Assembly (NCBI RefSeq): GCF_040412425.1
Contig: NC_089749.1
Span: 15,287,662-15,351,661, forward strand
DNA from: Macrobrachium rosenbergii
Lineage: Eukaryota; Arthropoda; Malacostraca; Decapoda; Palaemonidae
DNA length: 64,000 bases
Direction of reading: 5' to 3'
Below, piece by piece: positions 39,557 through 54,810 of the stretch. Within the stretch, counting starts at the first letter, position 1, and each line of letters opens with the position of its first letter. The notes beneath the pieces were generated by a model that did not search any database, had not been told where the DNA came from, and saw only the letters and a list, made by a program, of their open reading frames with translations. The translations under genes and the position numbers were made by a program.

Positions 39557-39832
39557 TTATCCCTCCCAATTATTCACCGTATAGACAAGATAGCCTATGG
39601 TAAAGAAAATGAATCCTAAAGGTACAATGATTCTGGAAGAGGTGTTAAGTAACCATGGTAACTGAGGATGCTTTCTGAAGTTTTTTGTGAGGGGCGTGCC
39701 ATTCTTCACATTGTTGAGATCTTTTGGTGTCACGGTGTGGTAGCAATTCTCCCGTAGATAATTTATCACCACCAGAATCACAACAATTATGAAGTCCATA
39801 GCAATGCAGAAAACAAACCATACGTCCACAAG
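39557..39832 (-). CDS. Channel exon 12: TM3, short loop, TM4, TAA stop
   Basis: It follows TTCCATCAG and encodes VDVWFVFCIAMDFIIVVIL (TM3), a loop of only about 42 residues, and RIIVPLGFIFFTIGYLVY (TM4), ending NNWEG and TAA at 39557-39559. Most animal Cys-loop subunits have a much longer M3-M4 loop. Confidence 0.93.
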   Translation of the reverse strand, partial: LVDVWFVFCIAMDFIIVVILVVINYLRENCYHTVTPKDLNNVKNGTPLTKNFRKHPQLPWLLNTSSRIIVPLGFIFFTIGYLVYTVNNWEG

Positions 39833-54800: not shown

Positions 54801-54810
54801 CAATTGACAT
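39557..54810 (-). CDS. Cys-loop ligand-gated ion channel with pentraxin, C-type lectin-like and LDLa ectodomain, twelve exons
   Basis: This is a predicted plasma-membrane pentameric channel subunit with an unusually large extracellular part. Exons from the 5' end are 54714-54810, 49957-50142, 48354-49210, 47242-47422, 46752-46849, 45610-45720, 44851-45033, 43689-43857, 42717-42896, 42146-42273, 40908-41070 and 39557-39832. They give about 875 residues: signal peptide 1-31; pentraxin about 34-230 (C65-C129 pair, GQDQDDLNGGF at 167-177); C-type lectin-like about 252-371; linker 381-473; LDLa 474-507; ligand-binding domain 511-730 with Cys-loop C650-C664; TM1 731-748, TM2 755-774, TM3 788-808, TM4 851-870. 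All junctions are in phase, but exon 9 carries one extra base near 42885. No vicinal Cys pair is seen, so it is not nicotinic-like; ligand and ion selectivity cannot be told. I infer a chemosensory or innate-recognition role from the domains only. Confidence 0.92.
40908..41070 (-). CDS. Channel exon 11: TM1 and pore-lining TM2
   Basis: It encodes YVPTTLLMTITYFTFFFP (TM1 with the family proline) and FTNRIMVSLTALLVLAALF (TM2), then TNQAMPRTAYLK. The intracellular end of TM2 reads T-N-R-I-M. It has the basic residue of anion channels, but neither the PAR anion signature nor the GEK cation signature is complete. Confidence 0.93.
41366..41571. mobile_element. 206-bp MITE-like element, TIR about 22 bp
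   Basis: CAGGCAGTCCCTGGTTATCA at the left matches CTGGTAGTCCCTGTTTATTG, the reverse complement of the right end. It lies in an intron of the channel gene. The target duplication is not clear. Confidence 0.6.
42146..42273 (-). CDS. Channel exon 10: end of ligand-binding domain before TM1
   Basis: It follows TTTAG and encodes LLEYNVDELKSEN and SEVRIYIRFVNLYNYYISG, the pre-M1 strand. The loop-C region lacks a vicinal Cys pair. The donor GTAAGT splits a Thr codon. Confidence 0.9.
42717..42896 (-). CDS. Channel exon 9: Cys-loop exon with one-base frameshift
   Basis: It encodes KGSENSIVDQRT and the canonical Cys-loop CLFDLSLYPFDVQTC (13 residues between Cys 650 and 664, with the conserved PFD). 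Spliced in phase, the exon starts D-E-L-Y and then meets TAA; the conserved frame resumes with KGSEN one base later. An extra base near 42885 therefore breaks the frame. The donor is GTAGGT, phase 0 in the resumed frame. Confidence 0.9.
43689..43857 (-). CDS. Channel exon 8: ligand-binding domain, IWRPKVF segment
   Basis: It follows ACCAACAG and encodes DNMEMNVVGG, the loop-A-type IWRPKVFHEEGS and the outer strands to LTRLKE. The donor GTTAGA is phase 1. The acceptor was chosen because it alone gives phase 0 joined to exon 7 without a stop. The reading lies antisense to a longer but spurious + strand ORF. Confidence 0.87.
44851..45033 (-). CDS. Channel exon 7: start of Cys-loop ligand-binding domain
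   Basis: It follows ATTACAG and encodes IPDSYIPELPPQ, the conserved VGVQINITSIRAFSLLDLMF strand and YTWRDSRLIFSNLK. The donor AAAG/GTGGTG is weak; it is preferred because frame and homology end there. Confidence 0.88.
45214..45508 (+). mobile_element. SINE-like repeat, family A, copy 2 (most complete)
   Basis: It runs from GAATATAAAATTTAGGCC through AGGGAAAACCTTGCAGTTGC, GGTACAGTAAAAGGAATG and AAGAACCTTAAGTAATGCC to ACAGCACTACCCTCC. It fills about half of the 576-bp intron between the LDLa exon and the ligand-binding domain, antisense to the gene. Confidence 0.7.
45610..45720 (-). CDS. Channel exon 6: single LDLa repeat, GC donor
   Basis: A 37-codon, phase 0-0 exon encodes exactly one LDL-receptor class A repeat: FTCDDGSC, QRCDFLFDC and PDQSDETNC supply six Cys (479, 484, 491, 497, 506 plus C472 upstream) and the acidic calcium-binding SDE. 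The 3' junction is AAG followed by GCAAGT, a GC-AG intron. Symmetric phase means the exon can be skipped or inserted without changing frame. Confidence 0.93.
45746..46020 (-). mobile_element. tRNA-derived SINE, family B, next to the LDLa exon
   Basis: Read on the - strand it opens with a tRNA-like head: CTCAGCTAGCACTGGCTGG resembles an A box, and GCTTGATTCTCC matches a B box. It continues through GAATTTATTTCTGGTGATAA to GGTCTGGTTAAAC at its 3' end. It ends about 25 bp from the acceptor of the LDLa exon, in gene orientation. Confidence 0.65.
46752..46849 (-). CDS. Channel exon 5: YPVGRHEW linker
   Basis: It follows AAACAG and encodes QYPVGRHEWLVRKDPCSVG through LVFTTCK. It closes the linker module with two Cys (C458 and C472) just before the LDLa repeat. 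The donor is GTAAAA, phase 0. Confidence 0.88.
47242..47422 (-). CDS. Channel exon 4: linker module between lectin and LDLa domains
   Basis: It encodes VRGLCADSLFDQRFLVMG, PYFQGFY, LEWSGNEWLMTSL and NASMIPTKP. I associate this pattern with crustacean channel ectodomains but it has no domain name known to me. The donor GTAAGT splits an Asn codon. Confidence 0.88.
48354..49210 (-). CDS. Channel exon 3: rest of pentraxin plus C-type lectin-like domain
   Basis: This 857-nt exon encodes the pentraxin core (FEVWWDYDSVC, WRFCFLLD with C129, and the calcium-site-like GQDQDDLNGG) and then a C-type lectin-like domain (LFSESAALCHNLDGS, SPEENRRVLPY, KWYQNRC, LCTLCSF). Cysteines 268, 298, 344, 362, 368 and 371 fit a CTL disulfide pattern. 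The canonical pentraxin signature is degenerate because its His is replaced. I see no EPN or QPD sugar-binding motif, so calcium-dependent carbohydrate binding is doubtful. The donor is GTTTGT, phase 0. Confidence 0.93.
49957..50142 (-). CDS. Channel exon 2: N-terminal half of pentraxin domain
   Basis: It follows TTTGCAG and encodes TTVTFQTDQ through VCMYLKTW to NFNELYIG, the first beta-strands of a pentraxin fold with the first disulfide Cys (C65). The donor GTAATT is phase 1. Confidence 0.88.
50543..50612. repeat. (GA)n microsatellite in channel intron 1
   Basis: About 35 pure GA units; a short GA run also lies at 50331-50350. Confidence 0.95.
51243..51495. repeat. Compound (CA)n(CT)n(AT)n and (AT)n(GA)n in channel intron 1
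   Basis: CA, CT and AT runs at 51243-51353 lie outside, and AT then GA runs at 51395-51493 inside, the perfect 39-bp inverted repeat. Confidence 0.95.
51355..51531. repeat. Perfect 39-bp inverted repeat around an (AT)n(GA)n spacer
   Basis: 51355-51393 (starting AACTTTACATCTTCGTTCAT) is the exact reverse complement of 51493-51531. The 99-bp spacer is pure (AT)n then (GA)n. It lies in channel intron 1. Confidence 0.9.
51740..51842. repeat. (AT)n microsatellite
   Basis: About 50 AT units in channel intron 1. A further run of about 39 units is at 52526-52603, just after the hairpin. Confidence 0.95.
52302..52462. repeat. 161-bp hairpin with 69-bp arms in channel intron 1
   Basis: 52302-52370 pairs with 52394-52462 with about ten mismatches; the core TTTTTTGGATAC and TTGTCACTACAAAG are exact apart from single changes. 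The loop is 23 nt. No TIR family was recognised. Confidence 0.85.
54714..54810 (-). CDS. Channel exon 1: signal peptide
   Basis: ATG at 54810-54808 opens 32 codons with a hydrophobic core (IQICFLSLGGLM) and a plausible cleavage after YAQQ. A second Met at residue 8 would give an equally good signal peptide. The donor GTAAGA is phase 1; the following intron is 4.6 kb and the longest of the gene. Confidence 0.8.

Follow-up and report, generated by a model that had tools for sequence, protein, structure and literature searches.

Polinski et al. are said to have announced, in their 2021 American lobster genome, a new class of chimeric receptors in which pattern recognition is combined with neurotransmitter binding. 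A gene of comparable build was characterized here in 64,000 nucleotides of Macrobrachium rosenbergii DNA (contig NC_089749.1, positions 15,287,662 to 15,351,661), the whole of which is referred to hereafter as the window. On its minus strand, one gene very likely joins recognition modules to a Cys-loop channel subunit, as judged from sequence. The lobster receptors reportedly likewise combine domains for pattern recognition with a channel of neurotransmitter-receptor type, and two Homarus proteins (P0027 and P0036, with Pentaxin, LDLa, ligand-binding and membrane domains) belong to the family of the window gene. The comparison is with another species, and the clade of the window gene has no Homarus member among the proteins retrieved. 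The architecture class is likely in print for lobster, with the analysis of pore and ligand pocket being the part added here. A first-pass annotation made from the letters alone knew of no functional description of the combination; none was found in a literature search on the combination and on the lobster genome, as far as the retrieved parts of the papers go, but the class itself had reportedly been announced for lobster. The chimera is not described in the retrieved passages of PMC13286009, PMC13372173, PMC11294593, PMC11708212, PMC9394032, PMC11257295 and PMC10338036. In such passages, the European lobster genome paper reports that ligand-gated channels, pentaxins and C-type lectins are expanded in Homarus, and its section 10 names no fusion (PMC13286009). 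Our guess is that some of these expanded genes are the same chimeras counted by domain.

The closest channel relatives by sequence and fold were receptors of the GABA and glycine group (GABA-A, RDL, glycine and GluCl), which share with the window gene the Cys-loop, W-x-D-x-R-L, four helices and Pro 23'. The window gene differs from them in lacking Pro-Ala before the pore helix M2, in the loss of the loop D Arg, in a PLPD...EDxxY insertion ahead of the Cys-loop and in its long recognition head. Neuronal pentraxin-1 (PDB 6ype) aligns with residues 42-212 (E 1.4e-17) and shares the GQ(E/D)QD core, whereas the pentraxin of the window gene forms the outermost part of a channel subunit and has Ala at the calcium ligand numbered 147 in CRP. 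The chemotactile receptors of octopus and squid are not known to carry a lectin or pentraxin head. In the passages retrieved, these are Cys-loop sensory receptors without classical ligand motifs, a lack shared by the window gene, but they are nicotinic-like whereas the window gene is GABA/glycine-receptor-like (PMC10338036).

We put at about 0.6 the probability that the locus is one gene whose product, a recognition head on a GABA/glycine-receptor-like subunit, acts as a cell-surface sensor, opening a pentameric pore upon binding. The 12 exons of the gene extend from 54810 to 39557, minus strand, and enclose 11 introns, of which 10 are GT-AG and one, 3' of the LDLa exon (donor at 45610), is GC-AG. 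The spliced product has ∼875 residues and, by profiles and models, the order signal peptide, pentraxin, C-type-lectin-like domain, beta-rich module, LDLa, Cys-loop channel. It is 99% identical to an NCBI M. rosenbergii protein (P0001), which is tagged LOW QUALITY. The exons are listed below, all on the minus strand and in window positions.

54714-54810, minus: exon 1, ATG and likely signal peptide, 32 codons (GT donor; P0001 N-terminus identical; residues 5-23 hydrophobic)
49957-50142, minus: exon 2, first part of the pentraxin (Pentaxin match, residues 56-210)
48354-49210, minus: exon 3, remaining pentraxin (to ∼48864), linker and C-type-lectin-like domain (∼48761-48381) (Pfam; AlphaFold2 model of the exon)
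47242-47422, minus: exon 4, first two thirds of the beta-rich module, residues 381-440 (without Pfam match; model confidence, pLDDT, in blocks of 88-94)
46752-46849, minus: exon 5, end of the module and LDLa cysteine 1 (LDLa profile match from residue 470)
45610-45720, minus: exon 6, remaining LDLa with five cysteines and the acidic calcium-site motif, phase 0-0, followed by the GC-AG intron (splice sites, Pfam)
44851-45033, minus: exon 7, start of the ligand-binding domain, W-x-D-x-R-L (splice sites, Pfam, alignment)
43689-43857, minus: exon 8, continuation of the ligand-binding domain, containing W-x-P and a PLPD...KE stretch specific to the family; phase 1 at its end (splice sites, alignment)
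42717-42896, minus: exon 9, Cys-loop (42830-42786) and next strands, open in phase 0 only (reading frames)
42883-42886, minus: frame break of one base; joining exons 8 and 9 at canonical sites brings a TAA at 42885-42883 into frame (splice reading; P0001 comparison)
42146-42273, minus: exon 10, final ligand-binding strands and start of M1 (splice sites; structure model)
40908-41070, minus: exon 11, M1 and pore helix M2 (41006-40932; Arg 0' at 40997-40995) (alignment; structure model)
39557-39832, minus: exon 12, M3, the 27-residue M3-M4 loop, M4 and stop (splice sites; structure model)

Pfam was run at curated cut-offs on the spliced protein, with an X at the frame break. Scores above cut-off were obtained for Neur_chan_LBD (1e-15), Pentaxin (1.5e-11, residues 56-210), Ldl_recept_a (4.5e-9, LDLa at about residues 472-506) and Neur_chan_memb (2e-9). 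Of the profiles that the first-pass annotation had proposed as a check, these were recovered and Lectin_C was not, its score of 21.9 bits (3.1e-4) lying slightly below the cut-off of 22.6. Chance domain matches were ruled out by the four families above cut-off in one protein and by the same order in relatives.

Three homology searches yielded 77 proteins, 68 of which form the main alignment; P0016-P0024, being partial, head-only or non-channel, were kept outside it, and gapped rows were left out wherever fewer than 68 are counted. The proposed fusion of recognition modules and channel in one gene was supported by the identical, independently made NCBI model, by the LDLa present in 67/68 channel homologues and by short contigs from relatives. 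In these, residues 122-629 (P0018), 139-631 (P0017) and 102-632 (P0019) are encoded on 1791, 2858 and 2422 bases, respectively, and link pentraxin, LDLa and ligand-binding domain in this order. Because exons 3-8 span 5.5 kb in the window, contigs of 1791-2858 bases probably represent spliced RNA; their source label 'lgn' we take to mean Logan assemblies of reads. The same NCBI model also suggests one transcript across the locus.

The channel part was complete in P0001, confirming the intact Cys-loop and four transmembrane helices noticed at first reading: the C-x13-C loop has YPFD inside (CLFDLSLYPFDVQTC), and the four helices are present in the structure model of the single chain. Across the family, the first cysteine of the loop was conserved in 67/68 rows and the second in 68/68. 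The residues before M2 are T-N-R in the window gene, in place of the anion-type Pro -2' and Ala -1'. Pro-Ala occurred in none of 67 rows (Pro alone in 1, Ala alone in 1), and position -1' was D in 40, N in 19, E in 7 and A in 1, that is, acidic or Asn in 66/67; within M2, Arg 0' was found in 66/67 and Leu 9' in 65/67. Acidic residues at -1' accompany cation flow in nicotinic receptors. The missing Pro-Ala and the acidic or Asn residue at -1' suggest a pore that would pass cations, not chloride. In receptors for GABA, glycine or glutamate, the loop D Arg, which precedes the conserved Trp by three residues, binds the carboxylate of the ligand; at this position, mapped from alignments, the window gene has Ser, and Arg was present in 8/68 rows and missing in 60/68. 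Its absence points to a ligand other than these three. The findings in M2 and loop D pose two plain questions, namely the ion that the pore conducts and whether it responds to classical transmitters at all. The M3-M4 loop, longer than this in most animal Cys-loop receptors, has 27 residues in the window gene (median 32, range 8-86, in 65 rows).

In the head, the LDLa has six cysteines and a CDxxxDCxDxSDE calcium motif, of which a loose form is present in 61/67 rows. The calcium site of pentraxins comprises, by CRP numbering, N61, E138, Q139, D140, E147 and Q150. The window gene has N, D, Q, D, A and Q there and so lacks the full set, which is complete in 10 of 45 gap-free rows when N/D and E/D swaps are allowed. 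An AlphaFold2 model of exon 3 matched the lectin domains of SP-A, SP-D and mannose-binding protein, with SP-A as best Foldseek match (1.3e-7) and mannose-binding proteins at a TM of ∼0.8 by target. The C-type lectin label given earlier is thus justified for the fold, which is that of collectin lectin domains, but not for the canonical sugar-binding site. EPN/QPD-like motifs were seen in 3/67 rows, WND-like in 1/67 and both in 1/67. The sole row with both in its lectin part, QPN and WSD, is P0010 of Petrolisthes cinctipes, judged from its motifs a good candidate for real sugar binding. The module at residues 381-471 (window 47422-46752) is beta-rich and conserved in the family, with RGLC, YPxGRHxW and DxC motifs. 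Pfam gave no match to it, and fold searches with the whole-chain model, in which the module was not queried alone, matched only channels. It was also matched in copepod protein P0022 and in P0023, where it adjoins the start of an LDLa.

All aligned homologues but P0070 (67/68) came from 21 species of Malacostraca, comprising decapods, krill (P0050), mantis shrimps (P0055, P0060) and amphipods (P0063, P0072, P0073). The suggestion that this may be a crustacean family was therefore right, and the family is broader than the decapods, from which similar predictions had been noted. Among matches with a species name, only head-type relatives were found outside Malacostraca (copepod P0022, lancelet P0024); because matches need shared short words, and one search scored the 7995 candidates sharing most words, this absence is weak. 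The ligand-binding domain was present in 68/68 rows, Pentaxin in 54/68 and Lectin_C in 43/68 (Pfam, E 1e-3). Proteins retrieved per species numbered 7 in M. rosenbergii, 9 in Palaemon carinicauda and 6 in Homarus americanus, and contigs of equal size hint at gene clusters, for example for three Homarus and three Panulirus proteins. Within the window there was no further family copy, as 322/322 tblastn hits (E 1e-5) fell in exon-bearing stretches. A tree from LDLa to M3, some deep branches of which are long and unsure, grouped the window gene, at a support of 100/100, with proteins of Palaemon, M. nipponense, Halocaridina and Scylla. Mean pairwise identity among 41 members (after a coverage filter had removed 20/68 rows and a further 7 had been set aside as near-duplicates) was 0.25 for the pentraxin, 0.245 for the lectin part, 0.32 for the module and 0.52 for the LDLa, compared with 0.30 for the ligand-binding domain and 0.53 for M1-M3. 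Database names of relatives are 'uncharacterized', 'hypothetical' or domain labels only. One of them, P0051 of Portunus trituberculatus (1225 residues), carries a reverse transcriptase annotation (PF00078), which probably comes from a transposon included when the gene was modelled.

If the product is a sensor, the ligand, probably a surface or foreign molecule, would bind either the head (pentraxin, C-type-lectin-like fold, beta-rich module and LDLa) or a non-classical pocket, and the pore would open in response. Subunits would form a pentamer, the structure model being of a single chain, with five heads above the pore, and the role could be chemosensory or innate-sensing. Binding to the head would then turn recognition directly into membrane current with no signalling cascade, uniting immunity and nerve in one protein, in animals that include farmed prawns, shrimps and crabs. 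On the best reading, the product would be an orphan, possibly cation-permeable surface sensor. The low identity of head and pocket against conserved M1-M3 and the lost motifs would fit a sensory repertoire, in which recognition surfaces change upon a constant pore; octopus chemotactile receptors, too, are without the classical ligand motifs. A wider proposal is speculative and, we think, unlikely: Malacostraca would use many cation-passing pentamers, each bearing a five-fold ring of pentraxins along with modules of lectin-fold and LDLa type, and the fast-changing heads and pockets would turn contact with non-self or food surfaces into depolarising current.

Several observations weigh against the sensor reading. 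The EPN/QPD and WND sugar motifs are absent from the window gene and the calcium ligand at CRP position 147 is Ala, losses that weaken the case for direct pattern recognition. Plain loss of binding in the head fits the same facts as a repertoire does, and the LDLa, itself part of the head, is not variable but conserved as strongly as the pore. Pentaxin went undetected in 14/68 rows and Lectin_C in 25/68, some of these rows being partial. The -1' residue of the window gene itself, Asn, is ambiguous, matching neither the Glu of cation channels nor the Ala of anion channels. Two gene models of relatives lack parts of the head: M. nipponense P0003 is without exons 1, 2, 4, 5 and the start of 3, and Palaemon isoform X3 (P0002) is without exon 6. 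Exon 6, and likewise exons 4 and 5 taken together, begin and end in phase 0 and can be skipped without loss of frame, and a splice form without the LDLa exon may exist; the intron that splits the LDLa, leaving its first cysteine in exon 5, ties exons 5 and 6 together. Finally, the reading frame is broken once, so that this copy could carry an assembly error or be a real null allele.

The rival that survives best, though we consider it rather doubtful, is that the head serves only as an anchor or assembly aid on an ordinary transmitter receptor. Neuronal pentraxins cluster AMPA receptors, neuronal pentraxin-1 is the top PDB match of the pentraxin (E 1.4e-17), and the nearest channel relatives are GABA and glycine receptors. 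An ordinary receptor of that group is harder to reconcile with a loop D Arg missing from 60/68 rows, the window gene included, with the lack of Pro-Ala before M2 in every row that has letters there, and with many divergent paralogues per species, which resemble a sensory repertoire more than a synaptic receptor.

The frame break raises the further question of a decaying pseudogene copy. Phase 1 at the end of exon 8 does not fit exon 9, which can be read only in phase 0; their junction is one base out and the reading hits the TAA at 42885-42883. The continuous in-phase exon series claimed at first reading therefore holds for its 12 exons and usable splice sites but not for this step, where the frame is lost. 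P0001 equals our splice residue for residue through 627 and over the last 244, with DELY between, indicating that the NCBI model was built on these exons and spans the break with those residues. Ten other homologue rows, including M. nipponense P0003, are in frame through this region. An alternative in-frame splice from a phase-0 donor at 43746 was rejected, as it would lose 19 complete codons from the end of exon 8 that are retained in relatives. The break amounts to a single base and stems either from an error in the assembly or from a recent allele. There is a weak hint that it lies in exon 9, as both P0018 and P0020 stop at about residue 630 with the residues E-G, as though a phase-1 donor like the one of exon 8 had been read through. 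The stop and the LOW QUALITY tag of the NCBI model are what decay would predict, but with a single lesion, 627 codons open upstream and 244 downstream, all splice sites usable and 93% identity over the channel part to M. nipponense, which reads through, a pseudogene is improbable, and a one-base error or recent allele is the better fit. Least credible by far is a merger, by gene prediction only, of a secreted pentraxin-lectin-LDLa protein with an adjacent Cys-loop receptor gene: the GC donor at the intron between LDLa and channel, the head-only annotation of Panulirus P0021 (493 residues) and copepod P0022, which matches residues 185-492 without a listed Pfam domain, would suit it, but in the NCBI model no separate start exists for the channel half, the LDLa-channel junction is in frame at phase 0, the LDLa accompanies the channel in 67/68 homologues and the RNA-like contigs of P0017-P0019 span the junction.

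Elsewhere in the window, an exon of a CAF1-family deadenylase, which we take to be CNOT7/POP2-like, lies at 17164-18187 on the plus strand (Pfam CAF1 6.9e-6 for 17900-18187). The upstream open reading frame at 17164-17529, plus strand, is without Pfam match and contains a NEECGIREVWAHNMEEEF stretch; it looks like part of the same CAF1 gene. At 30244-30915, plus strand, a 224-residue open frame with no Pfam match resembles a retroelement gag remnant.
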